Below are positions 1,428 to 35,333 of a stretch of 49,730 nt of DNA, one piece after another. The DNA comes from Candidatus Eiseniibacteriota bacterium (GTDB lineage: Bacteria > Eisenbacteria > RBG-16-71-46 > JACRLI01), in assembly GCA_025351485.1 (NCBI GenBank), contig JANXVU010000087.1, forward strand, positions 1 to 49,730. Direction: 5' to 3'. The translations under genes and the position numbers were made by a program. Within the stretch, counting starts at the first letter, position 1, and each line of letters starts with the position of its first letter. The notes under the pieces were generated by a model, which did not search any database, was not told where the DNA came from, and saw nothing but the letters and a program-made list of their open reading frames with translations.

Positions 1428-2606
1428 ATGGAATCTCTGAGGGTGCGGCTTTACATCCTGCTGCTGTTTGCCCTTCCCGTCCCGGCGGGGGCGGTCCCGG
1501 TGACGTTCCTCGTGTCCGTGCCTCCCGGGACCCGGCCCGGCGCGACCGTGTGGATTTCGGGGAACGATCCGGCGCTGGGAAGCTGGAACGGCTCCGGGCT
1601 CCAGCTGGCGCCGGATGGGAAGGGCGGCTACCGCGGCTCGGCGGAGTTTTCCCCGGGCGCCGCGCTGGAATTCAAGGTGACCCGCGGCAGCTGGGACACG
1701 GTGGAAAAGGATGCCAGGGGCGGGGAAGTCCCCAACCGCCGCTGGAAGGCGCAGGGCGCCGACACCGTCCGGGTGCGCGTGGAGGCCTGGAGGGATGCGA
1801 CCGAGAAGGCGCGGCCCCACACCCTGACCGGCAAGTTCGAGCGCCGGGACGGGTTTCCGTCGGCTTTCGTGAAGCCCCGCGACATACTCGTGTGGCTGCC
1901 GCCCGGCTATGATCGGGACACCACCCGCCGCTATCCGGTGGTCTACTTTCACGATGGCAACAACGTGTTTGATGTGGCGACCAGCTTCCTGGGGGTGGAG
2001 TGGGGCGCGGATGAGACGGCCACCCGGCTGATCGAAACGGGCCGGATCCGGCCGTTCATCGCCGTGGGTGTCTACAACACTCCGGACCGGGTGGAGGAGT
2101 ACACTCCCGCGGTCACGGTTCGCCGCGGGGCCGTGGCCGGCGGGCGCGCGGCCGAGTACGGCCGGTTCCTGGTGGAGGAACTCAAGCCGTGGGTGGACCG
2201 CCGGTTCCGCACTCTCGAGGGACCGGGGGACACGGGGATGATTGGATCCTCGCTGGGCGGCCTGGTGTCGGTCTATCTGGGACTGGAACATCCCGAGGTC
2301 TACGGGCTGATCGGGGCGCTGTCTCCGTCGGTGTGGTGGGCCGACCGGGACATCCTGGCTCGGGTCCGGGGCCACGCCCCCCGGCTCCGCCTCTGGATCG
2401 ACACCGGGGGCCACGAGAGCGGGAATTCCGCCGAGCGGGAGAACGTGGTGGCGGAAGCGGGCCAGTTGCGGGACTCCCTGGTGGCCTGCGGATATGCCCC
2501 CGGAAAGAACCTTCACTTCGAAGTGTTCCCCGGTGCCGAGCACAACGAGACGGCGTGGGCGGCGCGCCTCGACCGGATCCTGGAATTCCTGCTGCCGCCA
2601 AAGTAG
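1428..2606 (+). CDS. Secreted esterase (PF00756, esterase D-like) with N-terminal starch-binding-like domain
   Basis: The 392-residue protein starts with a signal peptide (hydrophobic LYILLLFALPVPAGA, cut near residue 23). Residues about 24-120 resemble a CBM20/CBM48-type beta-sandwich, with WISGNDPALGSWN as the recognisable strand-turn. Residues about 140-392 form an alpha/beta hydrolase of the putative esterase family: RDILVWLPPGYD opens it, GSSLG (273-277) is the nucleophile elbow with Ser275, and His372 in GAEHNE is the likely catalytic histidine. The same layout is known in secreted esterases that deacylate polysaccharides or siderophore esters. Its position between a glucoamylase and a GH57-like gene suggests a carbohydrate ester, but that is inference. 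No convincing ribosome-binding site or terminator was found. It is separated from the next gene by a promoter. Confidence 0.82.
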   Translation: MESLRVRLYILLLFALPVPAGAVPVTFLVSVPPGTRPGATVWISGNDPALGSWNGSGLQLAPDGKGGYRGSAEFSPGAALEFKVTRGSWDTVEKDARGGEVPNRRWKAQGADTVRVRVEAWRDATEKARPHTLTGKFERRDGFPSAFVKPRDILVWLPPGYDRDTTRRYPVVYFHDGNNVFDVATSFLGVEWGADETATRLIETGRIRPFIAVGVYNTPDRVEEYTPAVTVRRGAVAGGRAAEYGRFLVEELKPWVDRRFRTLEGPGDTGMIGSSLGGLVSVYLGLEHPEVYGLIGALSPSVWWADRDILARVRGHAPRLRLWIDTGGHESGNSAERENVVAEAGQLRDSLVACGYAPGKNLHFEVFPGAEHNETAWAARLDRILEFLLPPK

Positions 2607-2636: not shown

Positions 2637-2664
2637 TTGACGAAATTTCCAGAGCGTTTAGAAT
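2637..2664 (+). promoter_or_regulatory. Sigma70-type promoter for the alpha-glucan operon
   Basis: TTGACG at 2637-2642 and TAGAAT at 2659-2664 are separated by 16 bases, in an AT-rich island inside GC-rich DNA. The expected transcript start is near 2671, giving a leader of about 110 bases before the ATG at 2780. The -10 region with flanks (TTAGAATTATTT, 2658-2669) is identical to that of the promoter at 21327-21354. Confidence 0.72.
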
Positions 2665-2779
2665 TATTTCATTGAAGTTTCTCAGGCCGCACGAATAGCG
2701 CTCTCCGGCAGCTGCCCGCCCGGGGACCGAGCCCCACACATCTGGCTCGACAATGTTCCGGAATCGGGGAGTCCCCGTC

Positions 2780-5700
2780 ATGTTTCCCAAGGGTCCAAGT
2801 CTGCCTCGTCTTGCCGCGCTCCTTTCCTTGCTCTGCATCGCCCTGATCCCCGCCACGGCCGCTTCGCAGTCCAGGCGATACCTTGAAGACGAGCGGCTGC
2901 TGGAGCGCGCATCCTGGCCGGCCGCTGCCCTGAAGGCGCTTGGGACCGTGCGCGCCGGGGAAAGCGCCGACGAGGCGGCCTCCAACATCCTGTCCTTCTA
3001 CGTCACCGAAGAAACCGGTCGCCTCGCGCTGCGCGTGGGGATGGTCCAGATGCAAAGCCCGGTCGACTCGCGCGATCACTTCGCGCGGCAGCGCGTCCGG
3101 GTGCTGGTGCTGATGGACACCCGGCCCGGCGGCCGGACGGACCTGCCCGAAGGTATCGAGGGCAGCTCGCCGATCGAGTGGGACTCCTACGTCGAGCTCG
3201 ATCCCGCATTCGGCGGGGGGCCGGCCTCCATGCGCGGAGTGGCCGGCGAGGCGCTCGAAGTGCTCCCCGGCGCGCTGGCCCGGGTGGATTCCCGGCGCGA
3301 CGTTCTTTCCGCCTCCTTCGAGCTTCCCGCTTCGCTGGCCGGCCGCGTCAATCCACGTCCGCAGTTGCGCGGGGCCTCCGCCCCGGTGCGCTATTTCGTG
3401 ATCAGCGTGGTTGGAGGCCAGATCCGGGACCGCCTGCTTGCGCCGCTGGGAACGCCGGTGTACGAGGCCAACGTGGACTTCGTCAACCACGGCAACCAGG
3501 GGCTGGCCTATTCGGACGTGTTCCACGGCCGCTCCGGGGCCGAGAGCACCAGCGGGTTCGACGACATCCTGGCCATGCACCAGAACGCGGGCGTCCCGGG
3601 CAATTTCCACGTGGGTGGCTTGATCCAGACCTCGGCCCAGTGGAACTACAACAATGGCGACCCCTACGACTTCAACGGCACGCTTCGGGCAGGCGTCACC
3701 GCCGGCTGGGCGGCGATCCTGACTTCCGCCTACAGCCAGCACATCATGCCCTTCGCCACCGACGGCATGAACAACTGGTCGATCGACCGCGAAAAGGCCA
3801 TGGTCACGTATCGCTACAATTACAACGCCCGCGTTGCCTGGGTGCCGGAGCGGGTGTGGCTCTCGCCCACGCAGGGGCCCACCGGGGGCGTGGTCGACTG
3901 GATGGGGGACAATTTCACGAACCACGGCGTGGACGCGGTGATCCTGGACGACAACATCCACGGCCAGGGCTACGACAACCACCAGATCCACACCATGGCC
4001 GGCACCGGCCTGCGGGTGATCCTTCGCGACAACAACTTCACCGGCAAGATGCACGCCGGGGATGGGGCGGGGGCGCTCGCCGTGCTCACCGGCTTGGCAT
4101 CTTCGGGGCTCGGCACTTACCGCCTGGTGACCTACGCCGATGACTGGGAGATGGCCGCGGCCATGGGCAACTGGGCCACCGACATGCCCTACGCCTATGG
4201 CACCTACCAGTACATGATCACGAAGTGCCAGACCGAAAGCGCCTGGCTCCATGCCTGGAAGCTCGATCCGGCCCTGGACAACCCGAATTTCAACGGCAGC
4301 CCGGCCATGAACGTGACCTACGGAACCTACGGCTCCATCGGAGGCACAGCGGGCTATGGCGGCAGCAACAACGCCTGGTACACCGACTGGGCCGCCTTCG
4401 TGCCCTACGTCACCGGCGGGAACGGCAGCGGCGCGTGCGACGTGAGCCGCGGCGGCAACTGCATGAACCACGGCAGCATCTGGAACACCACCCAGGCCAA
4501 GCTGTCGCTGGCTCCGGTCAACAACATTTCCGAGTCGGGCTGGTACGTGATGATGTCCAACCTACACGAGGAGGGTTGGCACGACTACCTGGGCGGGCCC
4601 ATCAGCGGCTGGCAGCGCAACTACTCGGCGCACATCAAGAACGCCAAGATCTACGCCGAAGCCGCGCGCTGGGCGGGCGGGCTCTATGGAAGCGCCACCG
4701 GCGCGTATCTTTCCGACATCGACGAGGACGGGTTCAACGAGCTGGTGATGTACAACGACCGGGTGTTCGCGGTGTTCGAGACCGCGGGGGGGCGGGCCAC
4801 GCAGATCTTCGCCAAGGGCCCGGCAGGACAGAACTTTTCCATCGTCGGCAGCGACAACGCCTACTGGTCCGGCACGGAGGGCGATTTCAACGACGCCAAC
4901 CACATCGCCGCCTTCAGCGACGTGGGCCCCGGTTACCAGAACGATCCGTACAACGTGCACGTCGACATCGGAACCGGGAATACGGTGCAGGCCACGTTCG
5001 ACCACTACGGCGTGACCAAGACTCTCAAGCTGACCCTGGGACAGCCCTACATCGACGCGCTCTACAGTACGGGCGGACAAACTCAGTACATCCAGAGCGG
5101 CTGGACCCCCGACCTGGTGGACGTGATCTACAACGCCCAGATGAGCCGGGTGTTCGTGCCCAGCCGTTCCTACGTCGGGGAGCGCAACCCCAACACCGGC
5201 GCCACCGGCGCCTACGTTCTCGGGAGCGGGGGCGCGACCTTCAACAAGCAGGTGACCGGGACGGTCGTCCAGGGGGACGAGATCTACGGAAGCCAGAGTT
5301 TCGAGTTCTACATCTACGCAGGCTACGCCTCGGCCCCCGACGGCAGCGGCCACATCGCGGAGCTGGACAGCCTGGCCGCCCACCTTACGGACCAGATCCC
5401 GCCCCAGGTGGCCACGGCTACTTATTTTCCGGTGCCGCGCCAGCTCAGCATCACGTTTACCGAGGCGGTGCGGCGCTCCCCGGTGGTCTTCACCGGTATC
5501 GCCCTCGACCAGAACAACGACGGGGTCGCGGACGTCACCCTGGACAACTCCACCGTGGTGACCAACCCGACCGACGCGGCCACCCTGGTGCTGACGGTCA
5601 GCCCTTCGGTCGGAGCGGCCATCTCCGCACTCAACCACACCACGCTCCGGCTGCTGATGGCCGCGGGCGCGGCCCAGGACGTCCACTCCAACCTGATCGC

Positions 5701-7048
5701 CCAGGTCCGCAACACCGACAACAAGCTGATTTCCTTCGGCGCACCCACGTCCATCACCATCGACGGCTTCGTCAATATGGGCGAGTGGACGCAGTGCGCC
5801 GTGGCGGTGCGCGACTCCAACGACTCACAGTGGAACTCCGGTCCCGGACTGCACAACAACGAGATCCAGGCGCTGCTGATGAGCATGGACTCCACCTACC
5901 TGTACCTGGCGATCGCCGGGCGGGTGGACCACAATTCCTGGCTGATGTACCTGGACACCGACCCCGGCGGCTCGAACGGGCAGGCCGACCTGAGGGGCAT
6001 CGACACCTGGAACCGCAAGACGCTGTTCACGGCGCCGGGATTCAAGGCAGATTGGGAATACGGCTGCTTCCAGGACCAGGGAGCCTTCGACTCCAACGGG
6101 CTTTGGAAGATCCTTTCTCCCACCACCACCGCCGACTCCAGCTCCAGGGTGCTGCTGGCTTTTGATTCGAACCACGTCTACGGCGACAACGGTGGGAGCG
6201 AGCTGGCCATTCCCTGGAGCGTGCTCTACGGGGTGGGGGCGGGACGCGTCCCGGCCAACGCCAGGATTTCCATCGTGGCCTCGCTGGCCTACAACGGGGC
6301 CTCGGGCCAGCTTGGAGGGGACGTTGCGCCCAATCCGGTGGCCGCCATGGCGCTGCCGACCATCGACAAGGTTTACACATTCACGGTGGACGCTAACGGA
6401 GACGGCTATCCGGACCTGCCCGACCACGTCGCCCCGGTGCTGGCGTCGGCCTCGGCCCCCAACGACACCACGGTGATCGTGACTTTTTCCAAGGTGGTGG
6501 AGCCGGTCAGCGCGGGCACCGCGTCCAACTACGCCATCTACCGCACTTCGACACCGGCGCAGACGGTCACGGTCAAGTCGGCGGTGCGCATCGGCGCGGG
6601 AACCCAGGTGACGCTCACCACGGCGCACCAGATCTACCAGGACTACACCTTGATGGTAAGCGCGGTGAGGGACACCGCGTGCAATCCCAATACGATTGCC
6701 TCGAATTCCAGCGTGGCGTTTGCGGGCTCGCCGGTGGCGGTGGAAGAGCCGCGGAACCCGGGCGTGCTGACCCTGATGCAGAACGCCCCGAATCCGTTCG
6801 GCCGCCTGACGGTGATCCGCTACTATGTGCCGGCCTCGGGCGCGGGCGGCGCGCTGAACCTGTCGGTCTTCGACTCCGGGGGGCGAAGGATCCGGACGCT
6901 GGCGCAGGGCGCGTCCCGATCCGGGGCCGGATTCGCGGAATGGGATGGCCGCGACGAGTCGAGCGCTCGCGCGGGAGCGGGCGTGTACTATTATCGCCTG
7001 AGCTCCGGTGCGGAAAAAGTGATTCGCAAGATGGTGCTCTTGAGGTAG
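2780..7048 (+). CDS. Large secreted GH57-like glycoside hydrolase with CBM9-like, Ig-like and FlgD-like C-terminal modules
   Basis: Predicted extracellular alpha-glucan-active enzyme of about 1,420 residues. I chose the ATG at 2780 over an in-frame ATG at 2753 because GGGGAG lies 8 bases upstream and a clean signal peptide follows (LAALLSLLCIALIPATAASQ). The catalytic region (about 200-640) has AWVPERVW with Glu357, like the nucleophile region of GH57, and TYADDWEM with Asp454/455, where the family places its acid. NLHEEGWHD and DEDGFNELVMYNDRVFAVFE match segments seen in GH57 amylopullulanase-like proteins. The N-terminal HGNQGLAYSD replaces the usual HxHQP, so it is divergent. About 870-990 is an SbsA-like Ig domain, 990-1210 a CBM9-like domain (ITIDGFVNMGEW), then another Ig domain, and 1330-1422 a FlgD-like module ending GVYYYRL. 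The latter suggests type IX-like sorting to the cell surface. First gene of an 11-gene unit; gap to the next gene is 12 bases. Confidence 0.72.
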   Translation: MFPKGPSLPRLAALLSLLCIALIPATAASQSRRYLEDERLLERASWPAAALKALGTVRAGESADEAASNILSFYVTEETGRLALRVGMVQMQSPVDSRDHFARQRVRVLVLMDTRPGGRTDLPEGIEGSSPIEWDSYVELDPAFGGGPASMRGVAGEALEVLPGALARVDSRRDVLSASFELPASLAGRVNPRPQLRGASAPVRYFVISVVGGQIRDRLLAPLGTPVYEANVDFVNHGNQGLAYSDVFHGRSGAESTSGFDDILAMHQNAGVPGNFHVGGLIQTSAQWNYNNGDPYDFNGTLRAGVTAGWAAILTSAYSQHIMPFATDGMNNWSIDREKAMVTYRYNYNARVAWVPERVWLSPTQGPTGGVVDWMGDNFTNHGVDAVILDDNIHGQGYDNHQIHTMAGTGLRVILRDNNFTGKMHAGDGAGALAVLTGLASSGLGTYRLVTYADDWEMAAAMGNWATDMPYAYGTYQYMITKCQTESAWLHAWKLDPALDNPNFNGSPAMNVTYGTYGSIGGTAGYGGSNNAWYTDWAAFVPYVTGGNGSGACDVSRGGNCMNHGSIWNTTQAKLSLAPVNNISESGWYVMMSNLHEEGWHDYLGGPISGWQRNYSAHIKNAKIYAEAARWAGGLYGSATGAYLSDIDEDGFNELVMYNDRVFAVFETAGGRATQIFAKGPAGQNFSIVGSDNAYWSGTEGDFNDANHIAAFSDVGPGYQNDPYNVHVDIGTGNTVQATFDHYGVTKTLKLTLGQPYIDALYSTGGQTQYIQSGWTPDLVDVIYNAQMSRVFVPSRSYVGERNPNTGATGAYVLGSGGATFNKQVTGTVVQGDEIYGSQSFEFYIYAGYASAPDGSGHIAELDSLAAHLTDQIPPQVATATYFPVPRQLSITFTEAVRRSPVVFTGIALDQNNDGVADVTLDNSTVVTNPTDAATLVLTVSPSVGAAISALNHTTLRLLMAAGAAQDVHSNLIAQVRNTDNKLISFGAPTSITIDGFVNMGEWTQCAVAVRDSNDSQWNSGPGLHNNEIQALLMSMDSTYLYLAIAGRVDHNSWLMYLDTDPGGSNGQADLRGIDTWNRKTLFTAPGFKADWEYGCFQDQGAFDSNGLWKILSPTTTADSSSRVLLAFDSNHVYGDNGGSELAIPWSVLYGVGAGRVPANARISIVASLAYNGASGQLGGDVAPNPVAAMALPTIDKVYTFTVDANGDGYPDLPDHVAPVLASASAPNDTTVIVTFSKVVEPVSAGTASNYAIYRTSTPAQTVTVKSAVRIGAGTQVTLTTAHQIYQDYTLMVSAVRDTACNPNTIASNSSVAFAGSPVAVEEPRNPGVLTLMQNAPNPFGRLTVIRYYVPASGAGGALNLSVFDSGGRRIRTLAQGASRSGAGFAEWDGRDESSARAGAGVYYYRLSSGAEKVIRKMVLLR

Positions 7049-7060
7049 TCTCCCTCTCGC

Positions 7061-8485
7061 ATGCCTCAGGCCAAGGGACTAGCCGACTTGATGCGAAACG
7101 CCGACCCAGGATCTCTCGGTGCTGTTGAGCGCACGGGTAAGCTGCTGCCCGGGCGCGGCCTTTGGCAAGTATCGGCGGCCGCCGCGGCACTCGTGGCTTT
7201 GATCGCATTCGCCCCGGCGGCGCGCGGCCAGAGCGAAGTCCACAACGGTGGCCGGATCCGGATCGACGGCTTCTCCGATGATTTCACCGACTCCGAATCG
7301 GTGTTCATGCTCAACACCCGCGTCAGTCCTCCCGTTCTTGAAGAATCCCGCACCGATTCCCGCTGGCAGGACAACGACATTTCCCAGATCAAGTTCACCT
7401 GGGACGCGGACTCCGTTTACATTGCGGCCGACGGCGTGATCAACGGGAACAACATGCTCCTGTTGTTCGACGTCGGCAACCCCGCCCCGGGGATCCTGCA
7501 CGACACCGGGGCACGATTTAACGGGCTCACCAGCATGGCCAACCTCAATTCGTGGCGCAGGAACTTTGTCTTCGACAACGGATTTGCCCCGGACCTCTTC
7601 ATGGCCACCTGGGACGGCAACACCACCCCGAAGCTGCTCACGGTGCAGGGAGCCAACACGGTGCTGGACGAGAGCCCGGCCAATGCCTCCGGCGGCACCG
7701 GGCAGTTCCGGTCGGCGGCGAGCTTTTCGGGGACCAAGCAGGGCTCCATGGAGCTCGCCATTCCGTGGTGGAAGTTCCTGGGCTTCTCTTCCCCGACCGG
7801 CCTGGAGAGGCGCTACATCCCCGAATACCGCGATACCGTCACGGTGCTTCCTCCGGGGGTGCGGTTCATCCGGTTCGCCGGCGTGGTCACTGGCGGTGGA
7901 GACGGCACGGGCGGCCCCGACTCCGCGCCCGACAATCTGCAGGGCCACGAGGTGGACGCGGGCATCCAGGAGACCATCGACAATTTCGCGATCCTCGACC
8001 TGGACACCCTGGACGTGAACGGCCGCCCTGGTCCGGACGGTATCCCCGATTTCAGCCGCAGCGGCGGGGGACGGACGGTCATCGTGCAGCCCAAGTCCCG
8101 CATCACCTTCAAAGTGCAGCCGCCCATCCGGTCGGTGCGGTTCGAGCTCGACAGCCTGGCCTTTTCCCGGCCGTCGTTCGCCCCGTCCCGCCAGCAGCGG
8201 GCCGGCTTCCGTTTCGCCGCCACCTCCCCGGACCTGAGCGGTCCGTCCGATCTTGCGGGACGCAGCGTCACGGTTTCGGCTGCGGTCTACGATATGCGCG
8301 GCCAGCTGGTGCGCAGGATCTACACCAACGACCGGCGCCCGGCGGAGCGGCCCGCGGATGGGAAGGACTCCTGGGATGGCCGGGACGACAATGGATCCCT
8401 GGTGCCGGGGGGGATCTACCTGTTGCGATTGGTCCTGGAACCGGCCCAGTTCCGCAAGCTTGCTCCGATCGTGGTGGTGCGGTGA
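7061..8485 (+). CDS. Secreted CBM9/DOMON-like protein with FlgD-like C-terminus
   Basis: The 474-residue protein has a long N-region and then a hydrophobic export segment (AAAAALVALIAFAPAARGQ, about residues 39-57). GGRIRIDGFSDDFTD and the following FTWDADSVYIAADG are the typical opening strands of CBM9-like carbohydrate-binding domains; the domain runs to about residue 310 and includes SMELAIPWWKF, the usual last strand. The tail (about 370-474) is a FlgD-like Ig module with DSWDGRDDNGSLVPGGIYLLRL. The family often binds sugars, so a role in holding alpha-glucan at the surface is plausible, but no catalytic motif is seen. The start is uncertain: ATG 7061 has only a distant GAGG, and ATG 7091 is an alternative. 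It overlaps the next gene by one base (TGATG), which suggests translational coupling with the PorV-like protein. Confidence 0.68.
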   Translation: MPQAKGLADLMRNADPGSLGAVERTGKLLPGRGLWQVSAAAAALVALIAFAPAARGQSEVHNGGRIRIDGFSDDFTDSESVFMLNTRVSPPVLEESRTDSRWQDNDISQIKFTWDADSVYIAADGVINGNNMLLLFDVGNPAPGILHDTGARFNGLTSMANLNSWRRNFVFDNGFAPDLFMATWDGNTTPKLLTVQGANTVLDESPANASGGTGQFRSAASFSGTKQGSMELAIPWWKFLGFSSPTGLERRYIPEYRDTVTVLPPGVRFIRFAGVVTGGGDGTGGPDSAPDNLQGHEVDAGIQETIDNFAILDLDTLDVNGRPGPDGIPDFSRSGGGRTVIVQPKSRITFKVQPPIRSVRFELDSLAFSRPSFAPSRQQRAGFRFAATSPDLSGPSDLAGRSVTVSAAVYDMRGQLVRRIYTNDRRPAERPADGKDSWDGRDDNGSLVPGGIYLLRLVLEPAQFRKLAPIVVVR

Positions 8486-9402
8486 TGCGGTTGTCTTCGT
8501 TCGCGCTTCGTTCGCGCATCCGGATCGCGGTGGTGGCGCTGGCCCTGGTCGCACTTCTTCCCATGCCCGCCCGGGCCTGGTTCGAAGAAAGCGACGTCGG
8601 CGCCCGCGCGGCCGGTTTCGGTCGCGCCTTTTCGGCGGTGGCCGACGATCCCAGCGCGCTGTACTGGAACCCCGCGGGACTCAGCCGGACCCGGGCCCGG
8701 GACCTGGTGCTGACCTATTCCCGCCCGTATTCCATTTCCGGGCTCACCTCCAATTACGCGGCGGTCGCGATCCCTACCCGATTTGGCGGTGCGGGCTTTT
8801 CGATCCATCACCTGGGAGTCAGCGGCGCGGTGCACGAGGACATGCTGACCCTCGGGGGAGGGCGCGAAGTATTCGGGTCGAGCCACGGCTACAGCGTGGC
8901 CGTGGGCGCGGCGGTCAAGCTGGCCCGGCTGTCCTTTCCTTCCTACACCGATCCGGACAACGGGCAGATCGTGGACTTTGGTTCCACTTCGAAGCTCACC
9001 GGCGATGTGGGAGTTCTGGTGAATGTCCCCGGGAACTGGACCGCGGGGGTGACCTTGCGCAATCTCGGCGCGCCGGAATTCCAGGCGCTTGACGGCGTGG
9101 GCGGAGGGAGCGAGCTGCCCACCATGGCCCAGGCCGGCGTGGCGTTCAAATGGAATCCGGAGTCGACCGTGGCCTTCGATTACCAGCAGAACCGCAAGGG
9201 CAAGGGGATCTTCAACCTCGGCGGGGAAATATGGTTCTACGATTCCTTCGCCATCCGCGCGGCCATCACCAGCGCGGATGCGGGCGGGGGATTCAGCATC
9301 AAGGCGCGGCATTTCAAACTGGAGATGGCGTTCCTCACCAACGAGCCGCTGGGGGCGTCCTACCGCGTCGGGCTGAACGTCCCACTGGGGACCTCCAAGT
9401 GA
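8485..9402 (+). CDS. PorV/UPF0164-type outer-membrane beta-barrel protein
   Basis: The 305-residue protein begins at the ATG overlapping the previous stop. It has a signal peptide (IRIAVVALALVALLPMPARA) followed by GARAAGFGRAFSAVADDPSA and LYWNPAGLS, the hallmark of the PorV/PorQ/UPF0164 family (FadL-like barrels). The remainder is alternating amphipathic strands, as expected of an outer-membrane barrel. In Bacteroidota, PorV (LptO) escorts proteins carrying type IX C-terminal domains to the surface attachment complex. Here it directly follows a protein with such a C-terminal module, and a second such pair exists at 43343-49638. Role as a sorting partner is inference from family and context. 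It overlaps the next gene by four bases. Confidence 0.78.
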   Translation: MRLSSFALRSRIRIAVVALALVALLPMPARAWFEESDVGARAAGFGRAFSAVADDPSALYWNPAGLSRTRARDLVLTYSRPYSISGLTSNYAAVAIPTRFGGAGFSIHHLGVSGAVHEDMLTLGGGREVFGSSHGYSVAVGAAVKLARLSFPSYTDPDNGQIVDFGSTSKLTGDVGVLVNVPGNWTAGVTLRNLGAPEFQALDGVGGGSELPTMAQAGVAFKWNPESTVAFDYQQNRKGKGIFNLGGEIWFYDSFAIRAAITSADAGGGFSIKARHFKLEMAFLTNEPLGASYRVGLNVPLGTSK

Positions 9403-10958: not shown

Positions 10959-13120
10959 TGAGAACGAACTTGGGACGCCGGCGCCTGGCCGCCGGGATCG
11001 TACTGCTTTTCCTCATGGCCTGGTCCCCTCCGCGGGCCTCGGCCGAGGTTTCCTCCGTGGACGGCGGGATCAAGTTCACCTATCGGAACGCCAATGCGAA
11101 AAGCGTGAGCTGGGCCGGCGCGTTCAACAACTGGAGCGCCACCGCCAATCCGATGACCCGGGACGGAGACGTCTGGTCCGTCGTGCTCCCGCTCAAGTCC
11201 GGCGAGCAACAGTACAAGTTCGTCGTGGACGGTCAGTGGGTGGCCGATCCGGAAAATCCGGTGACCGGCGGGGACTTCGGTAACTCAATGGTCAAGGTCG
11301 CCTCGGACGGCAAGCTGGCGGTCATGACGGCAACCTCCAATACCGCGATGAATCCCAAGGTGTACCTGGGCGGGAGGTTCATCACCAAGTACATCTCGCG
11401 CAAGGTGGACGCCGACAGCGGCCGGCTGGAACTGGGGCGCCCCGACTTCAACCTGGACCTGGACTTCAAGATCCGGATGAACGATGTGCTCGACGCCCAC
11501 ATGCTGGTGAACATCGAGAGTGAAAACGAGAACGTGCAGTTCTTTCGCACCCGGCTCAATTTCGACCGGGGTTCGCTGCACCTGCACTCGGAGGCGCTGG
11601 AGCTATTCGGCTTCGACAACGATTCGCTGGGAACCTGGGAGGACCCGCTCCACCTGGTGGGGAATATCGGAATCTATCACCACGCCTTCGGCTTTGCGCA
11701 GCAGGGGGTGGAGGCGCTCAAGGACTTCGGGGACTTCAAGGCGCGGGCGCTGTATTCCGACAACTTCCGGCCGGGGGGCACCAGCCGGCCGAGCGCCCTG
11801 AATCTGACTCTTCCGATTGTCCAGTTGGCGTCCGGTCCCAGCCTGACCGCGAACACATCGCAGGTCTACGACCGCACCTTCGGGGACAACGCCAAGAACA
11901 TCTTCGCCGCGCGGGTGACGCGGGACGCGGGAAAGGAGTGGTGGTTCGGGGTGAGTGGCAGGCTGGACCGGGGCCAAAACCCCGGCCTGGTGGTGATCTT
12001 CGAGCCGGGGGGCACCGATTCGGCCGGCCGGCGCACGGGAGGGGTTCTGACCAGCGGCAACACGGTGGAGCGCTGGTGGGCCGTGGGCGCCGACGCCCGC
12101 TACAAGCAACCGACCTGGGAGTTCGCGGGGGAGTACCTCAAGGGGCGCAACGACCTCATGTACGTCGGGGACGGTTCAGTATTCCAGCTCAACTTCACCC
12201 CTCCGGATACCAGCAGGCTGGTGGTTCCCTTGAGCCGCAAGCCCAGCTCGCCCCGGCTGGCCGACGACAGCCGCGCTACCCTCCAGTGGAGCGGGCGGCT
12301 CGACGAGTCCCTCCGGCTCAGCGCGGGCGTGCAGTTGCACCGCAATCATGTCGCTGCCCTGGGGAGCGACAGCCTGCTTAGCCTGGCCGACTCGCTGGTG
12401 CCCGCAAGCGACTTCACCAATACCCGCATGACCTGGTCCGCCTCGGCGCGGAAAGAGTGGCTATGCAGCTCCGGCAAGCGCCTGACGGCCTCCCTGGGGC
12501 TGGTCTACGATCACTTCGACTACGACGCGCACACGCCCTGGCTGCACCAGTTCTGGTTCGACCGCCACAATTTCTGGCTGGACGCGGGCGAGCACCAGGT
12601 GAGCTTTGACAAGCTGACCCTGCTGGGCGGCAACAACGTCGTCAGCTGGAGGCCTTCGGTCGCCGCGGATGTCTGGACCAAAGGCGAGGTCAAGGTGCGC
12701 TGGCAGGGCACGTTCAATGGTGTTTCCATGAGCACCCGGCCCAAGTACATGGAAAACCTGTTCCAGGCCACGACCCGGCTAGGGTCCCGCACCCACGCGC
12801 TGTGGGACGTGCGGTGGGCCAAGTATGACGATCCGCTCCTGGACCTGGGGCACGGATACGTGGACCACTTCATCCGCTTATCCTACGACTTCACCCCGGG
12901 CATCACCATCCAGGCCGGCTGGGGGGTGGATCCGGACGTCCTGGATCCTCCGGTGAACGAGTACGCGCCGATCGGCCGCGATCTGTTCCTGTTCGGCCAG
13001 GGGGCCAACGGAAGCGTGGCGCAGGACAATTACCGCGGGTTGGCGAAGGCCATCCCGGCCGCGGAGCTGGCGCTTGAATCGGAACGCCGGGTGCAGCTCC
13101 AGGCGATCGTGAGGTTCTAG
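10958..13120 (+). CDS. Outer-membrane beta-barrel with N-terminal CBM48 glycogen-binding domain
   Basis: The 720-residue protein has a signal peptide (AAGIVLLFLMAWSPPRASA). Residues about 33-112 match the AMPK-beta-type glycogen-binding domain (CBM48): SWAGAFNNWS carries the aromatic sugar platform and QQYKFVVDGQWVADPEN is the conserved second half. The rest (about 125-720) is barrel-like, with strands such as DFNLDLDFKIRMND, and ends in VQLQAIVRF with the terminal phenylalanine of outer-membrane proteins. The simplest reading is a porin that binds alpha-1,4-glucan through its periplasmic or extracellular N-terminal domain and passes the products. The topology of the CBM48 domain cannot be decided from sequence. 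No SusC-type plug or TonB box is recognisable. It overlaps the preceding barrel gene by one base and is one base from the next gene. Confidence 0.72.
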   Translation: MRTNLGRRRLAAGIVLLFLMAWSPPRASAEVSSVDGGIKFTYRNANAKSVSWAGAFNNWSATANPMTRDGDVWSVVLPLKSGEQQYKFVVDGQWVADPENPVTGGDFGNSMVKVASDGKLAVMTATSNTAMNPKVYLGGRFITKYISRKVDADSGRLELGRPDFNLDLDFKIRMNDVLDAHMLVNIESENENVQFFRTRLNFDRGSLHLHSEALELFGFDNDSLGTWEDPLHLVGNIGIYHHAFGFAQQGVEALKDFGDFKARALYSDNFRPGGTSRPSALNLTLPIVQLASGPSLTANTSQVYDRTFGDNAKNIFAARVTRDAGKEWWFGVSGRLDRGQNPGLVVIFEPGGTDSAGRRTGGVLTSGNTVERWWAVGADARYKQPTWEFAGEYLKGRNDLMYVGDGSVFQLNFTPPDTSRLVVPLSRKPSSPRLADDSRATLQWSGRLDESLRLSAGVQLHRNHVAALGSDSLLSLADSLVPASDFTNTRMTWSASARKEWLCSSGKRLTASLGLVYDHFDYDAHTPWLHQFWFDRHNFWLDAGEHQVSFDKLTLLGGNNVVSWRPSVAADVWTKGEVKVRWQGTFNGVSMSTRPKYMENLFQATTRLGSRTHALWDVRWAKYDDPLLDLGHGYVDHFIRLSYDFTPGITIQAGWGVDPDVLDPPVNEYAPIGRDLFLFGQGANGSVAQDNYRGLAKAIPAAELALESERRVQLQAIVRF

Positions 13121-13121
13121 C

Positions 13122-13544
13122 ATGAAGCCTTTCTTTGGCGGCAGGGCCCTGGCGGCCCGCGGATCCCTGGGCCTGGTCGCGGTGGCGCTCCTGGTCACCT
13201 CGTGTTCCTCGCTCAGCTTCATCAAGCGGCGGCTTCCCCCTCCGTCCCAGTCGGACCAGGGCGTTGTGTTTCAGTTTGAGGCCCCCTCGGCCAGGGTGGT
13301 GCAGCTCATGGGCAGCTGGCCCGAGAACAACTGGGGCTCGGGCCAGGCGCAGACGGGTTCCTACCGAATCGGGGAGATGGTCCGGGGCGAAGACGGCGTG
13401 TGGAAACGCACGGAAAAACTTCCGCCTGGACGCTACCAGTACAAGTTCAAGGTCGATGAATTGAATTGGAAGGAAGACCCCAATAACCCGCAGCGGGCTG
13501 ACGACGGGTTCGGCGGCTTCAATTCCCTGCTCGTGGTGAACTAG
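13122..13544 (+). CDS. Lipoprotein with a single CBM48-like glycogen-binding domain
   Basis: The 140-residue protein has a lipoprotein signal ending in a lipobox (LLVTSC, Cys28). Almost all the mature part is one CBM48-like domain: VVQLMGSWPENNWGSG corresponds to the first aromatic site and GRYQYKFKVDELNWKEDPNN to the second half. No enzyme domain is present. It is likely an outer-membrane-anchored alpha-glucan-binding protein, a possible functional counterpart of SusE/SusF, although unrelated in sequence as far as can be seen. It is one base downstream of the CBM48 barrel gene and is part of the same transcription unit. Confidence 0.75.
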   Translation: MKPFFGGRALAARGSLGLVAVALLVTSCSSLSFIKRRLPPPSQSDQGVVFQFEAPSARVVQLMGSWPENNWGSGQAQTGSYRIGEMVRGEDGVWKRTEKLPPGRYQYKFKVDELNWKEDPNNPQRADDGFGGFNSLLVVN

Positions 13545-13593
13545 GAAACGGGGAGCCATGATGCCCGCCTCGCATCGATTCCGGGAGAACGCC

Positions 13594-15456
13594 ATGTTGA
13601 AGACGAGCCGCAGGCTGATGTTGGGGATGGTCTGGGTGACGGCCGGGCTGTTGCTCGCGCAGTTGGGGTGCGACCGCGCACCAGGAAAGCTGCTGCTGGA
13701 TCCCGGTGGCAGCGCCGGAGGCGCGGGATACAAGTCGAAGTTCACCAGGATCCAGGTGGCCGGCAACCTTAACCCGACGCTCTACGGGAATTTCGATCTC
13801 ACCAAGTCTCCGGACATGGCGAACCAGGGCAACGGGGTGTGGACGGCGGTGGTAAAGGGTGTCGCCGCCGGGGATCACCTGTTCAAGTTCGTCACCAACG
13901 GGAAATTCGACGATCCCCCGGACTACGGATCGGACGAGGTTTGCCGGCCCTCCACGTCCGGGGCGGTCATCCCGGTCACGGGCCAGGGCACGGCCATCTG
14001 CGTGACCTTCGCGGCGGCCGGCAACTACAAGGTGACCCTGGACGAGCAGACGCTCAAGTTCAAGTTCGAGCCTTACACCGTGGCCACACCGGGCACGATC
14101 GCGGGCACGGTGACCTTTGAAAACCCGCCGCCGTCGCCGCTCAAGGCGGCCGTGACGGTGCTGACTGCCGGAACCCAGACCGTGCAGGCCGCGGACAGCA
14201 CCGAGAGCAACGGCAGTTTCTCCATCGGCGACCTGCCCGAGGGGAGCTACGACGTGCGCTTTGCGGCCTCCGGCTACCTGGACTCGCTCAAGACGAACGT
14301 GCAGGTCGCGGCGGGCCAGACGGTCAACATCGGCACGATCCGGCTGGCCAAGGGCTGCACTTCGGCGTTCAGCAAGATCCAGGTCGCGGGCAACTTGAAC
14401 ACCGACCTGTACGGCAACTTCGACCTGACCAAGTCGCCGGAGCTTCAGAAGGTCGCGGGTTGCAGGTGGGAGACCACCATCAACACCGTGACGGCGGGCC
14501 AGCACTTCCTGAAGCTGGTCACCAACGGCGCGTTCGACAATCCCAAGGACTACGGCGGCGAAGAGTCCAACTGCCTCACCCTGAGCGCCGGGTTCATCAG
14601 TGCGCCGGTGAAGCAGGTCTCCGGCACCGGCACGGCGCTGTGCATCAACTTCCCCGAGGCCGGGAACTACAAGTTCACCCTGGATGAGGATGCGCTCACG
14701 CTCCGGATCGAAAAGACGGTGGTGTTGCAGGGAGGCACGTTGCACGGAGAGGTGGCCTTCGGCGGGACGCCGCCTCGCGGCTTGCATGCGGCGGTGACGG
14801 TGCTGCAGCAGGGGACCTCCACCGTGGTGGCGGCCGACAGCGCCACGCCGGAATTCATCCTGAACGGCATTCCGGCCGGCCAGTACGACGTGAAGTTCGC
14901 GGCCGTGGGATACCTGGACACGCTCCGCTCCGCCGTGATCGCCGTGGGCCAGATCACCGAGCTGGGCACGGTCCAGATGCGCGCGGGGTGCACTTCGGCC
15001 TTCAACAAGATCCAGATCGCCGGAAACCTGAACACCGACAAGTACGGCAACTTTGATCTGACCCGGGCGCCGGAACTGACCAAGATGGGCGGGTGCAGAT
15101 GGCAGGCGACGGTCGACAGCGTCCTCTCCGGCCAGCACTTCTTCAAGCTGGTGACGAACGGGGCGTTTGATAGTCCGCCGGACTACGGCGGCGACGAGAG
15201 CAACTGCCTCACGCTCACCGCCGGTACGCTGAACACAACGGTCCGACCGGCAAGCGGAACGGGGACGGCGCTCTGCGTGACGTTCCCCGACGCCGGAAAG
15301 TACAAGTTCACGCTCGACGAAGCCGCCCGGACGCTCCTGATTGAAAAGGTCACGTCCGCGGCCTCGCGTATCCAGACCATCAAGCTCGGGCTCCGTCCGG
15401 AAAATTCGGCCGGCGCCGGGAGCGAAGGTATCGTTTCCACAGGAGGCTCCCGATGA
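13594..15456 (+). CDS. Probable lipoprotein with alternating carbohydrate-binding-like (A) and carboxypeptidase-regulatory-like (B) repeats, A-B-A-B-A
   Basis: I chose the ATG at 13594 because GGGAG lies six bases upstream and the signal sequence then starts normally (MLKTSRRLMLGMVW, Cys26). ATG 13558 or 13561 are in-frame alternatives. The QLGC lipobox is imperfect. The mature protein has three copies of a roughly 110-residue unit A (13736-14080, 14360-14710, 14990-15350), each opening FxKIQVAGNLN and containing GNFDLTKSPE, a Cys pair in the middle, and GNYKxTLDE at its end. They alternate with two copies of unit B (14090-14350, 14735-14985), which look like carboxypeptidase regulatory (CnaB-like) domains with GSYDVRFAASGYLD. 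Unit A resembles CBM20/CBM48 sandwiches. A spaced multivalent glucan binder at the surface is my inference. It overlaps the next gene by four bases. Confidence 0.68.
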   Translation: MLKTSRRLMLGMVWVTAGLLLAQLGCDRAPGKLLLDPGGSAGGAGYKSKFTRIQVAGNLNPTLYGNFDLTKSPDMANQGNGVWTAVVKGVAAGDHLFKFVTNGKFDDPPDYGSDEVCRPSTSGAVIPVTGQGTAICVTFAAAGNYKVTLDEQTLKFKFEPYTVATPGTIAGTVTFENPPPSPLKAAVTVLTAGTQTVQAADSTESNGSFSIGDLPEGSYDVRFAASGYLDSLKTNVQVAAGQTVNIGTIRLAKGCTSAFSKIQVAGNLNTDLYGNFDLTKSPELQKVAGCRWETTINTVTAGQHFLKLVTNGAFDNPKDYGGEESNCLTLSAGFISAPVKQVSGTGTALCINFPEAGNYKFTLDEDALTLRIEKTVVLQGGTLHGEVAFGGTPPRGLHAAVTVLQQGTSTVVAADSATPEFILNGIPAGQYDVKFAAVGYLDTLRSAVIAVGQITELGTVQMRAGCTSAFNKIQIAGNLNTDKYGNFDLTRAPELTKMGGCRWQATVDSVLSGQHFFKLVTNGAFDSPPDYGGDESNCLTLTAGTLNTTVRPASGTGTALCVTFPDAGKYKFTLDEAARTLLIEKVTSAASRIQTIKLGLRPENSAGAGSEGIVSTGGSR

Positions 15457-16046
15457 AGCGCTTCATGAGCGTGGCACTGGCCGCGCTGTTCACCATTGCC
15501 CTGATGCCCGTGCTCTCCTTTGCCCAGGAGGGGGCCAAGCTGACCACCCTCAAGGCCACCAAGTTCCTGCTCGTGGCCGAAGCGGGCAATGGCCGCAAGC
15601 TGACGGCCACGCTCACCTCCGAGGGCAAGACATGGGTCCTCGCGGCCGACGATATCCATCTCAAGCTGGGGGACGGTGGGATCATCATGGTGGAGGCGCT
15701 CAATGCGTTGCTCGGGGAGCTCAAGGCCCCGGTGGTGGGAGCTCCGGTCAAGGTGGAGGGCGGGTGGCGCTTCTCGATCTCCAACGACGCCGCCAAGGCC
15801 GCCCTGGGCAAGGACCCGGGCACGGTCAGCCTGGCAGGCGAATTCAACGCTTGGAACTCGGGCGACCCGAACTACGCGCTGAAGCTGGCGGACGGAGTGT
15901 GGTCCATCACCGTTCCGCTCCAGCCGGGCAAGTACCAGTACAAGTTCGTCCTGGACGGCGGCGCGAAGTGGAAGGAAGATCCAAGCAATAAGGACACCAT
16001 GGATGACCACAACGGCGGCCTGAACACGATCGTGACAGTGCCGTGA
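15453..16046 (+). CDS. Exported protein with C-terminal CBM48 glycogen-binding domain
   Basis: The 197-residue protein has a strong ribosome-binding site (AGGAGG, 15441-15446) and a signal peptide (FMSVALAALFTIALMPVLSFA). Residues about 27-105 contain repeated small strands with no recognised family. Residues about 112-197 are a clear CBM48 domain: VSLAGEFNAWNSGD and KYQYKFVLDGGAKWKEDPSN. It has no lipobox cysteine, so it is probably periplasmic or secreted. It overlaps the lipoprotein gene upstream and the MalE-like gene downstream by four bases each, so it may deliver bound oligosaccharide to the importer, which is inference. Confidence 0.74.
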   Translation: MKRFMSVALAALFTIALMPVLSFAQEGAKLTTLKATKFLLVAEAGNGRKLTATLTSEGKTWVLAADDIHLKLGDGGIIMVEALNALLGELKAPVVGAPVKVEGGWRFSISNDAAKAALGKDPGTVSLAGEFNAWNSGDPNYALKLADGVWSITVPLQPGKYQYKFVLDGGAKWKEDPSNKDTMDDHNGGLNTIVTVP

Positions 16047-17308
16047 GGCAGGCGATCCCGATGCCCTCGTCGACCATGTTGCGCGGGCTGGCCGGCCTGG
16101 TGCTTCTCGCGCTGTGCGTGGGCGCCGTGTCCGGCTGCTCCGGCAAGAAGAAGGAGATGCGCATCAGCATCTTCGAGCAGATGGACCCGCCGGAGCGTGT
16201 CCAGCTCGAACGGCATCTGGAGGCCTACCGGAAGCTCCACCCGGAGCTGGTCATCACCCACCAGAACTATGAAACCGACGCGCTCCGGCAGCAGTTCCAG
16301 ACCGCCGCCAACGCCGGTGGAGGTCCCGACATCGTGTTCGGCCCTTCGGACCAGATCGGTCCGTTCTCGGTGATGGGGCTGATCCTGCCGCTCGAGGACG
16401 TGCTGGGCAAGGACTACTACGCGGGCTTCGAGCCGGGCAGCCTGGACACCCTGGGCGGGCATTTGTACTACGCGCCGGACCAGCTGGGCAACCATCTGAT
16501 GCTGCTCTACAACAAGAAGCTGACCACCAAGGTCCCGGCGACCACCGACGAGTGGATCGCGGAGGCGAAGCGGCTCACGAAAGACACCAACGGCGACGGC
16601 ACGCCCGACCAGTACGGGATCGTGATGAACCTGGTGGAACCCTTCTGGCTGGCGCCGTTCCTGAACGGCTACGGCGGGTGGGTGATGGACGCGAAGCACC
16701 AGCCGACGCTGGACAGCCCGGGCATGGTGGGCGCCCTGAAGTTCCTGTCCTCGCTCCGAAACCAGAACCTCATGCCGCGCGAGTGCAACTACGCCGTCGC
16801 GGACAACCTGTTCAAGGAGGGCAAGGCGGCCTATCTGGTCAACGGACCATGGTCCTGGACCGCCTACAAAGCCTCCGGCATCGACCTCGGGATCGCGCCC
16901 CTTCCCAAGGCGGCCGCCACGGGTCGCTGGTGCGGCCCGATGACCGCCTCCAAGGGCTACTCCGTCAGCAAGAGCTCTCCGATGGAGATGCGCCCGGAAG
17001 TGGTGGCCCTGGTCAAGTACCTCACCAGCCCCGAGGTCGGGGTGGACAACGCCGACTCCCTGGGCACGCTTCCCAGCATGACCGCGGCCTACGCCGACCC
17101 CCGCGTCTCGGGAAACCCTTTCCTGGCCGCTTCGCGGGCCGCCTACGCCCTGGGCCGCCGGATGCCGGTGGTGCCGGAAATGCGCGCCATTTGGGACGCC
17201 ATGCGCCCTGAAATGGAGAAAGTGCTGAGCGGGGCGGAAACCCCCGAGGCGGCCTCCAAGGCCATGCAGGCGGGCGCGATCAAGCAGATCCAGACCATGA
17301 AGGACTAG
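16043..17308 (+). CDS. malE: ABC transporter substrate-binding lipoprotein, maltooligosaccharide type (MalE-like)
   Basis: The 421-residue protein belongs to the family 1 extracellular solute-binding proteins. The start is the GTG at 16043 overlapping the previous stop; ATG 16061 is an alternative. A lipobox (AVSGC, about Cys33) predicts membrane anchoring. The mature protein opens with MRISIFEQMDPPERVQLERH and carries GGGPDIVFGPSDQIGPF and AAYLVNGPWSWTAYKASGID, patterns typical of maltose/maltodextrin-binding proteins. The neighbouring alpha-glucan genes support maltodextrin as substrate. The two permease genes follow 8 bases downstream. Confidence 0.86.
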   Translation: MRQAIPMPSSTMLRGLAGLVLLALCVGAVSGCSGKKKEMRISIFEQMDPPERVQLERHLEAYRKLHPELVITHQNYETDALRQQFQTAANAGGGPDIVFGPSDQIGPFSVMGLILPLEDVLGKDYYAGFEPGSLDTLGGHLYYAPDQLGNHLMLLYNKKLTTKVPATTDEWIAEAKRLTKDTNGDGTPDQYGIVMNLVEPFWLAPFLNGYGGWVMDAKHQPTLDSPGMVGALKFLSSLRNQNLMPRECNYAVADNLFKEGKAAYLVNGPWSWTAYKASGIDLGIAPLPKAAATGRWCGPMTASKGYSVSKSSPMEMRPEVVALVKYLTSPEVGVDNADSLGTLPSMTAAYADPRVSGNPFLAASRAAYALGRRMPVVPEMRAIWDAMRPEMEKVLSGAETPEAASKAMQAGAIKQIQTMKD

Positions 17309-17316
17309 GGAAGACC

Positions 17317-18207
17317 GTGGGCTCCGGCCGGCGTCCCTACCGGTTCTTTCCGTACCTGATGGTCCTGCCCGCCATGGCCGTCATGGTGGCGGTGGTGTTC
17401 TATCCGCTGCTCTACAACTTCAGCCTGGCCACGCGGAACATGAGCCTGTACCACTTCCAGTCCTCGCAGTTCGTGGGCCTGAAGAACTTCATCGCGATCT
17501 TCTCCGACCACACCTTCTACGGCGTCTTCCTGAAGACGGTGATCTGGACCGTGGCCAACCTGGTCTTCCACGTCCTGTTCGGCGTGACCTTGGGGCTCCT
17601 GCTGGACCGGCCGCTGCCGGGGCGAGCGGTCCTAAGGGCGCTGCTCATCCTGCCGTGGGCCGTTCCCCAGTACATCAGCGCGCTCACCTGGCGGGGCATG
17701 TTCGACTACGAGTACGGCGCCATCAACCTGATCCTCAAGAACGCGTTGCACCTGATGCCGATTCCGTGGCTCTCCAACGCCACCTGGGCCTTCATCGCCC
17801 CGGTGATCACCAACGTGTGGCTGGGATTTCCGTTCATGATGATCGTTACGCTGGGAGGGTTGCAGAGCATTCCGGCGGAGCTCTACGAGGCGGCCGACCT
17901 GGACGGGGCCAGCCCGTGGACCAAGCTCACCCGCATCACGCTGCCAGGGCTGTGGCCGGTGCTGGCACCGTCCATTCTGTTGGGGACGGTGTGGACCTTC
18001 AACAACCTGAACGTGATCTGGCTGGTCACCGACGGGGGACGCCCGGCCGACCAGACCCACATCCTGACCACCTATATCTACAAGGCCGCCTTCGCCTATT
18101 ACCGCTACAGCTATGCGGCGGCGTTCTCGGTCATCGTGTTCCTGATCCTGCTGGGCTTCACCATCGCCTTCATGCGGTCCCTGAAGGGGCAGGAGGCGCG
18201 GGCATGA
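17317..18207 (+). CDS. malF: Maltodextrin-type ABC transporter permease (MalF-like)
   Basis: The 296-residue inner-membrane protein starts at GTG 17317 and has six predicted membrane helices, beginning FFPYLMVLPAMAVMVAVVF. The cytoplasmic EAA loop that docks the ATPase is present (EAADLDGASPWTKLTRITLP). It is shorter than E. coli MalF, which has an extra periplasmic domain; the short form is usual outside enterobacteria. It overlaps malG by four bases. Confidence 0.9.
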   Translation: MGSGRRPYRFFPYLMVLPAMAVMVAVVFYPLLYNFSLATRNMSLYHFQSSQFVGLKNFIAIFSDHTFYGVFLKTVIWTVANLVFHVLFGVTLGLLLDRPLPGRAVLRALLILPWAVPQYISALTWRGMFDYEYGAINLILKNALHLMPIPWLSNATWAFIAPVITNVWLGFPFMMIVTLGGLQSIPAELYEAADLDGASPWTKLTRITLPGLWPVLAPSILLGTVWTFNNLNVIWLVTDGGRPADQTHILTTYIYKAAFAYYRYSYAAAFSVIVFLILLGFTIAFMRSLKGQEARA

Positions 18208-19052
18208 GCGGATTCGGAGGCAGGAAGAAACTCGGGACCGGCGACCTGCTCGCCTATGCGATCCTGGTCACGTTCGCGGTGGCGGCCGTCTACCCGGTGC
18301 TCCAGATCTTCAGCATCTCGCTGCGGCCGGGCGATCGGCTTTACTCCACGTCGCTCGCGATCATCCCGCAGGACGCCACGTTCAAGGCCTATCACACCAT
18401 CCTGTTCGACCGGCCGTTCGGATTGTGGCTTCGCAACAGCCTGCTGCTTTCGGCTTCGGTCACGCTGGTGAGCATCGCGCTGGCCTCCACCGCGGGCTAT
18501 GCATTCTCGCGCTACCGGTTCCGGGGACACCGGGAGGGGATGTATTCGTTCCTGATGACCCAGATGTTTCCGGCGACCATGCTGCTGCTGCCGCTGTACG
18601 TGCTGTTCCGCCAGCTGCAGCTGCTGGATTCGTTCATCGGCCTGGGAGTGGCCTACGTGGCCACTTCGCTGCCATTCTGCGTGTGGACCATGAAGGGCTA
18701 CTACGACACCCTGCCGCGGGACCTGGAGGAGGCGGCGCTCCTGGACGGGATGAACCCGTGGGGGGCGTTCATGGTGGTGGTGCTGCCGCTGGCGGCGCCC
18801 GCGCTGGCCATCACGGCCCTGTTTTCGTTCATGGCCAGCTGGTCGGAGTTCATCGTGGCCCGGGTGATCCTGAGCCGGCCCAACCTGTTCACCCTGCCCC
18901 TTGGACTGGCCAGCCTGGCCGGGACCTTCCAGACCGAATGGGCCAACTATGCGGCCGGCAGCCTGTTAGTGTGCCTGCCCGTGGTGGTGCTGTTCATCGC
19001 TTTGAACCGGCTGCTGATTTCCGGGCTCACCCTGGGTGGGGTCAAGGGGTAA
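18204..19052 (+). CDS. malG: Maltodextrin-type ABC transporter permease (MalG-like)
   Basis: The 282-residue protein starts at the ATG overlapping the malF stop. It has six predicted helices and the EAA loop (LEEAALLDGMNPWGAFMVVV), and ends with the usual GLTLGGVKG tail. It pairs with MalF to form the channel. No MalK/MsmX-type ATPase gene occurs in the window, so the energising subunit must be encoded elsewhere and may be shared. Last gene of the alpha-glucan unit. No clear hairpin terminator follows; the next promoter begins 22 bases later. Confidence 0.9.
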   Translation: MSGFGGRKKLGTGDLLAYAILVTFAVAAVYPVLQIFSISLRPGDRLYSTSLAIIPQDATFKAYHTILFDRPFGLWLRNSLLLSASVTLVSIALASTAGYAFSRYRFRGHREGMYSFLMTQMFPATMLLLPLYVLFRQLQLLDSFIGLGVAYVATSLPFCVWTMKGYYDTLPRDLEEAALLDGMNPWGAFMVVVLPLAAPALAITALFSFMASWSEFIVARVILSRPNLFTLPLGLASLAGTFQTEWANYAAGSLLVCLPVVVLFIALNRLLISGLTLGGVKG

Positions 19053-19073: not shown

Positions 19074-19102
19074 TTGACATTTAGTTAGCTGACGCGTAGT
19101 AT
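19074..19102 (+). promoter_or_regulatory. Sigma70-type promoter for the CBM9/starch-binding-like secreted protein
   Basis: TTGACA at 19074-19079 and TAGTAT at 19097-19102 are 17 bases apart. The spacer contains an imperfect palindrome (GTTAGCTGAC, 19084-19093) that could be an operator. The expected transcript start is near 19109, which argues against the ATG at 19107 as a translation start. Confidence 0.68.
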
Positions 19103-35308: not shown

Positions 35309-35333
35309 CCCTGGCCGATCGGAATCGAGAGCG

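Follow-up and report, generated by a model that had tools for sequence, protein, structure and literature searches.

What is known of how large glycans cross the outer membrane comes mainly from SusCD and other TonB-dependent systems. In the SusCDEFG system of the Bacteroidota, outer-membrane barrels, multi-domain starch-binding lipoproteins and surface amylases are encoded by clustered genes, and in the LamB-MalEFGK system of Proteobacteria maltodextrins are imported by MalE, MalF and MalG together with a MalK-type ATPase. In this work, we analyzed a locus with features of both, carried by a stretch of 49,730 nucleotides from a Candidatus Eiseniibacteriota bacterium (GenBank assembly GCA_025351485.1, contig JANXVU010000087.1). 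This whole stretch, hereafter the window, lies on contig C91 of a genome of 3.44 Mb that is 98.6% complete and has its closest relatives among Candidatus Eisenbacteria. The locus would work much as Sus does, yet falls outside the Sus family when SusC and SusD are taken to define it, and it probably constitutes an alpha-glucan (starch, glycogen or maltodextrin) capture and import system of the Eiseniibacteriota and allied phyla. No publication on this gene set was found in the openly licensed journal literature, preprints not included, which is weak evidence of absence.

The core of the locus consists of eleven open reading frames (ORFs) at 2753-19052 on the plus strand, all in one direction and closely spaced, neighbours overlapping or lying 1-13 bp from each other; the largest possible gap is 49 bp, if the later methionine at 13594 is taken as the start of the second lipoprotein. 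They lie behind a promoter-like site at 2637-2664, as stated in the original prediction, which had been made from the nucleotide sequence and which also named at least three clear carbohydrate-binding module family 48 (CBM48) proteins plus MalEFG, now recognized by Pfam (AMPK1_CBM three times, SBP_bac_8 once and BPD_transp_1 twice). The genes are as follows.

2753..7048, plus strand: 1431-amino-acid secreted enzyme-like protein with a type-IX-like C-terminal tail (FlgD_ig 2.9e-07)
7061..8485, plus strand: secreted protein of a conserved family with a type-IX-like tail, usually the first gene of the core block; 12 bp gap after 7048
8485..9402, plus strand: PorV/PorQ-like outer-membrane protein (NCBIfam PorV_fam 6.6e-18; Pfam TraF_2 7.8e-08); TGATG-type overlap at 8485
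9399..10958, plus strand: BARREL1, a predicted plugless beta-barrel of an unnamed family (AlphaFold2 predicted local distance difference test score, pLDDT, 87.3); overlap 9399-9402
10958..13120, plus strand: BARREL2, an N-terminal AMPK-type CBM48 followed by a large beta-barrel (AMPK1_CBM 3e-14; AlphaFold2 pLDDT 84.1); TGATG-type overlap at 10958
13122..13544, plus strand: LpCBM48, a lipoprotein with lipobox, IKRRLPPP motif and CBM48 (AMPK1_CBM 1.2e-07); 1 bp gap after 13120
13558..15456, plus strand: SusE/F-like candidate lipoprotein with three X25/CBM48-fold repeats and two CarboxypepD_reg domains between them (CarboxypepD_reg 1.4e-15, X25 1.9e-06); 13 bp gap (49 bp from 13594)
15453..16046, plus strand: exported CBM48 protein of the signal peptidase I type (AMPK1_CBM 4.9e-11); ATGA-type overlap at 15453
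16043..17308, plus strand: MalE-type maltodextrin-binding lipoprotein (SBP_bac_8 2.4e-29); ATGA-type overlap at 16043
17317..18207, plus strand: MalF-type permease (BPD_transp_1 4.6e-17; best NCBIfam match MalF, 6.1e-52); 8 bp gap ahead of 17317
18204..19052, plus strand: MalG-type permease (BPD_transp_1 1.8e-15; 66-69% identity to relatives); ATGA-type overlap at 18204

The comparison with the Bacteroidota system gave a clear result. SusD (PF07980) was detected in the Bacteroides positive control and in 0 of 21 block-bearing genomes, and SusC (TIGR04056) was above the cut-off in none of the same 21, where all matches were partial, generic and located away from the block. Membership in a SusC/SusD system was rejected on these counts, in line with the original prediction. 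The locus further differs from Sus in its plugless barrels of unnamed families, in the presence of CBM48 instead of the SusD fold, in the inclusion of MalEFG in the block and in its type-IX-like tails. With respect to LamB-MalEFGK, the differences are the lack of a LamB-family match, barrels that have about 24 strands and carry a CBM48, and the absence of MalK from the operon; a maltoporin by itself also comes without CBM lipoproteins, unlike this locus.

AlphaFold2, run on alignments of 52 members each, gave confident models of the two barrel proteins. The BARREL1 model has about 24 strands (counted from the DSSP list), the first of them at residue 31, right behind the signal peptide, and the protein is thus predicted to lack a plug domain. 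Its 52 members showed no Pfam match except one chance-level domain of unknown function, and a sequence-profile search of the PDB returned no match. In the BARREL2 model the CBM48 occupies residues ~32-114, the first barrel strand begins at residue 134 and helices lie just ahead of the last strand; the CBM48 was matched in 52 of 52 members. The Pfam models for plug/TonB_dep_Rec, LamB and FadL found nothing among the 52 BARREL1 and 52 BARREL2 members, and these three identities were rejected. The original prediction had named structural placement of the barrels in a TonB-dependent SusC family as a refuting outcome, and no such placement emerged: a structural search (Foldseek) returned generic large barrels only (FimD usher, siderophore receptors) at TM <0.5, so that no barrel family can be named, and the best size matches of BARREL1 were the barrels of the FimD usher and of TonB receptors.

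These data also bear on a different origin, in which either BARREL1 or BARREL2 would have decayed from a TonB-dependent receptor and either LpCBM48 or the SusE-like protein from a SusD or SusE. The size of the two barrels, which in Foldseek comes near that of 22-strand receptors, and weak SusF_SusE matches in relatives, such as a sub-threshold one (7.5e-05) in the L031 relative of the 13558-15456 protein, fit such a descent. The lack of any plug or barrel match in either family, the position of the first BARREL1 strand and the counts for SusD and SusC speak against it, and we regard it as highly improbable. The original prediction had described the locus as convergent and non-Sus, which is plausible, although the evidence extends only to the absence of detectable homology.

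The assignment to alpha-glucans derives in part from the CBM48 domains. AMPK1_CBM was above the Pfam cut-off in three operon proteins (10958-13120, 13122-13544 and 15453-16046), and relatives of the last of these carry two to four CBM48s in tandem. W100, K126, W133 and N150 of AMPK beta1, which we take to be glucan-contact residues, have counterparts kept in 65, 65, 58 and 64 of 65 BARREL2 proteins and in 58, 56, 56 and 56 of 58 LpCBM48 proteins, respectively. From what is known of the family, we infer that the CBM48 proteins bind glucan. The termini of outer-membrane barrels normally face the periplasm, and the CBM48 of BARREL2, since it precedes the first strand, would by default be expected on the periplasmic side. 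The earlier proposal that CBM48 proteins replace SusD, SusE and SusF and that the barrels replace SusC is supported as regards a conserved alpha-glucan locus with MalEFG, CBM48 proteins and non-SusC barrels. The replacement itself is an analogy; the BARREL2 module would by default, unlike SusD, lie in the periplasm.

LpCBM48 shows in addition a signature just past its lipid-anchor cysteine, C-x(2-12)-[IVLW][KREQ]x[RK][LVTI][PES][PKAT]P, which mostly reads IKxRLPPP, was absent from the original prediction and has apparently not been described before. It was found in 52 of 58 loci, the six misses being degenerate or partial by eye, and in 0 of 3410 unrelated control ORFs; as the pattern was tuned on the same proteins, this control measures specificity and is not an independent discovery. 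That a segment beside the anchor is so strongly conserved points to a fixed partner on which it docks, in the simplest case one of the barrels. In this respect, the locus resembles LptD-LptE and SusC-SusD, in which the gene of a large barrel is obligately paired with that of a small lipoprotein able to plug or lid it. No sequence homology to either was detected, however, the pairing at this locus is putative, and LpCBM48 differs from both lipoproteins by its glucan-binding domain and its IKxRLPPP segment. Arrays of four to six tandem CBM48s were also seen beside the block in several relatives (L033:4810-6234, L034:10176-11633, L042:13192-15786 and others), some of them, for example that in L042, having no catalytic domain by Pfam.

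The original prediction had named conservation of the block in relatives as a check, and when this was run the block recurred in dozens of genomes, which is far from a chance arrangement. A query with the CBM48-barrel against 99 genomes gave full-length relatives inside the class and outside it, and 64 loci with a full BARREL2, drawn from ~85,000 species genomes, were read without selecting for the neighbours. BARREL1 adjoins BARREL2 in 62 of the 64, LpCBM48 is next in 57 and a PorV-like gene is present in 44. The gene order in relatives is (secreted protein)-PorV-BARREL1-BARREL2-LpCBM48-SusE-like-(CBM48 exported)-(GH13 or GH57)-MalEFG, where GH denotes glycoside hydrolase families. Locus L031 reproduces the arrangement of all eleven genes of the operon, except that a GH57 relative sharing 51% identity with a Pfam-verified GH57 (alignment A5) is inserted ahead of malE. 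Block enzymes of relatives are GH13 proteins of the alpha-amylase type, with up to four scored N-terminal CBM48s, or CBM48-GH57-glucodextranase proteins, and 26 of the 32 loci with a length of 18 kb or above include MalEFG genes or an enzyme of GH13 or GH57. Furthermore, of the 18 genomes that have a BARREL2 relative, 13 encode an orthologue of the 2753-7048 protein, compared with 1 of the 80 that lack such a relative (p = 2e-11).

The hosts belong to at least eight phyla, mostly uncultured: Eiseniibacteriota, Krumholzibacteriota, Cloacimonadota, WOR-3/Hydrothermota, Zixibacteria, Latescibacterota, Elusimicrobiota and Lindowbacteria. In the phylum of the window itself BARREL1 was found in 17 of 47 genomes, and the BARREL1 tree groups largely by phylum. 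Loci L095, L102 and L105, whose genomes bear the labels Latescibacterota, Fibrobacter and Gemmatimonas, have near-identical BARREL1 genes and surroundings, and their phylum labels are for that reason unreliable (mislabelled bins or cross-contamination); Fibrobacterota and Gemmatimonadota were left out of the host count. In the WOR-3-type loci L086, L094, L107, L114, L115 and L124, BARREL1, BARREL2 and LpCBM48 are accompanied by a CarboxypepD_reg protein, with no Mal, GH13 or GH57 gene nearby.

The inner-membrane part of the proposed pathway is a binding protein with two permeases of the maltodextrin type. The best solved relative of MalE is a maltose/maltodextrin protein (PDB 6ffl, 1.5e-97), and MalE and MalF did not attain the NCBIfam equivalog cut-offs. 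Elsewhere in the genome of the window we found a MalK-type ATPase (OB_MalK) on contig C172 and a GH13 enzyme with CBM48s on contig C38. In two Lindowbacteria loci (L042:6814-8190 and L140:5785-7161), a MalG-type protein of 458 amino acids is encoded beside BARREL1 and BARREL2 and has a CBM48-like segment at its N-terminus; this CBM48-MalG fusion is unusual and possibly reflects a start mis-call.

The secreted proteins at the start of the operon may connect the locus to type IX secretion, a link that had gone unnoticed in the original prediction. FlgD_ig or C-terminal domain (CTD) type tails are present on the proteins beginning at 2753, 7061 and 19107, above the cut-off for the first and the last and below it for the second; TIGR04183 scored 18.9 of the 23 bits needed on the first. 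The PorV_fam score of the 8485-9402 protein was 65.4 against the NCBIfam cut-off of 90 bits, which sets it apart from PorV of described type IX systems. SprA was found in 16 of the 21 block genomes, SprA_N being above the cut-off in that of the window. The CTD-type tails, the PorV/PorQ-like gene and the presence of SprA resemble what is seen in type IX cargo systems, and together they suggest that the secreted parts of the locus use this route.

The two secreted proteins fared less well as regards their predicted families. In the 2753-7048 protein, the motif order HGNQ, WVPERVW, YADDWE, GWHD is kept in orthologues (39-57% identical) and resembles GH57, as had been proposed. Yet neither Pfam nor a PDB profile search gave a GH57 match, and an hhalign comparison with true GH57s of sister loci was collinear and not significant (probability 0.4%). 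The 7061-8485 protein had been called CBM9-like, and this found no backing: in its family of 13 members no CBM9 was detected in Pfam or PDB, matches being confined to the FlgD_ig/CTD region.

The same data could be read as a type IX-linked display of amylases and CBM48 proteins, with the barrels serving as anchors or export devices and MalEFG fed by ordinary porins. Such a function would account for the frequency of the PorV/PorQ-like gene, for the three tails and SprA, for the WOR-3 loci that have barrels and lipoprotein without Mal genes nearby, and for the best size match of BARREL1, the FimD usher, being a secretion barrel. Against this, the genomes already have the SprA translocon, the barrels are unlike any type IX component in Pfam or NCBIfam, and a conserved glucan-binding module on a barrel is best explained by glucan handling. 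We consider display or export unlikely.

If the locus is, as we favor, a TonB-independent capture and import system, the following sequence of events can be proposed. Enzymes and binding proteins with type-IX-like tails would reach the surface through a SprA-type system and the PorV/PorQ-like protein. Glucan would then be held at the outer membrane by the CBM48/X25 lipoproteins (LpCBM48 and the SusE/F-like protein) and cut by enzymes of the GH13, GH57 or related types, whose genes lie within the block or outside it. The resulting oligosaccharides would pass through BARREL1 and/or BARREL2 as large plugless barrels, one of which probably seats LpCBM48 by its IKxRLPPP segment as a lid, plug or tether, and the CBM48 of BARREL2 might act as a trap that grips glucan at the mouth of the barrel, the periplasmic mouth by default. 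Finally, maltodextrins would be imported by the MalE lipoprotein and MalFG, powered by the MalK-type ATPase encoded on C172. A more ambitious proposal, which we put forward tentatively and hold somewhat doubtful, is that the barrels represent an undescribed class of outer-membrane nutrient transporter in at least eight phyla: a TonB-independent plugless pair, one member with a CBM48, gated or tethered by LpCBM48 via IKxRLPPP. In this scheme, it is not TonB energy that would draw glucan inwards but MalEFG together with binding at the periplasmic face.

Several observations weigh against the capture and import reading. The modelled large plugless barrels match no transporter specifically, TM being below 0.5. 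The catalytic identity of the 1431-amino-acid protein is unproven, its GH57 assignment being motif-like and not confirmed, and a search of the genome of the window found no glycogen phosphorylase. In six long loci, of which five are WOR-3-type, the barrels occur with no Mal or GH13/GH57 gene detected nearby, so that the core need not serve MalEFG import in every case and the barrels with LpCBM48 may act without a local importer. Besides, BARREL1, BARREL2 and PorV show correlations of 0.92-0.93 between their distance matrices, which fits one unit but partly mirrors shared organism history.

A conserved locus with neither SusD nor a SusC above the cut-off would be a second solution to the uptake of large glycans, and would give many uncultured host phyla a predicted food source. 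The two barrel families and the lipoprotein signature provide search handles for annotators, and starch or glycogen feeding of the hosts becomes a testable question with named genes.

The limits of 2637-19052 given in the original prediction proved too narrow, as a CBM20-esterase upstream and two units with the same type of promoter downstream also belong to the locus:

1428..2606, plus strand: exported esterase with N-terminal CBM20 (Pfam Esterase 3.7e-32, CBM_20 1.8e-06)
2637..2664, plus strand: promoter-like site 1, near-consensus, TTGACG-N16-TAGAAT, ahead of the eleven-gene operon
19074..19102, plus strand: promoter-like site 2, of the same type, ahead of the 19107-21323 unit
19107..21323, plus strand: secreted CBM20 and Big_5 protein with a type-IX-like tail (CBM_20 2.1e-07, FlgD_ig 3.9e-11)
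21327..21354, plus strand: promoter-like site 3, sharing TTAGAATTATTT with site 1, ahead of the 21456-22367 unit
21456..22367, plus strand: exported protein without assigned family, behind promoter-like site 3 (preferred start ATG at 21456)

The CBM20-esterase adjoins the block also in L028, L033, L034 and L036, and the CBM20 and Big_5 protein was found again beside the block in relatives; the 21456-22367 protein had no Pfam match. The window contains three occurrences of the form TTGAC-N16-19-TAGNAT, where 0.05 would be expected and 0 of 100 shuffles reached three, and each lies directly upstream of a transcription unit of the glucan locus. Genome-wide the plain form occurs 15 times, and extension by TTATTT is confined to the sites at 2637 and 21327. 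A chance origin was rejected from the counts in the window and the genome; generic promoter and terminator scans of the window gave no excess over shuffles. Three near-identical, strong promoter-like sites within 19 kb suggest a single regulon or a class of unusually strong promoters.

Further downstream, the window holds a separate surface-polysaccharide cluster with O-antigen ligase (Wzy_C) and GT4 glycosyltransferase genes (33596-38617). Its position, ~11-16 kb from the locus, and the nature of CBM48 as the AMPK-type glycogen module would fit a role in handling the cell's own surface or storage glucan, by export or remodelling of a glycogen-like coat and not of foreign starch. MalE, MalF and MalG are importer genes, though, the blocks of relatives contain hydrolases and not synthases, and unrelated genes (ubiE, peptidase M28) separate the locus from the glycosyltransferases; we judge such a role very unlikely. 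These intervening genes, at 22486-25022, encode a methyltransferase (ubiE/menG) and a peptidase of family M28; by eye, the C-terminal end of the peptidase looks similar to a type-IX-like tail.

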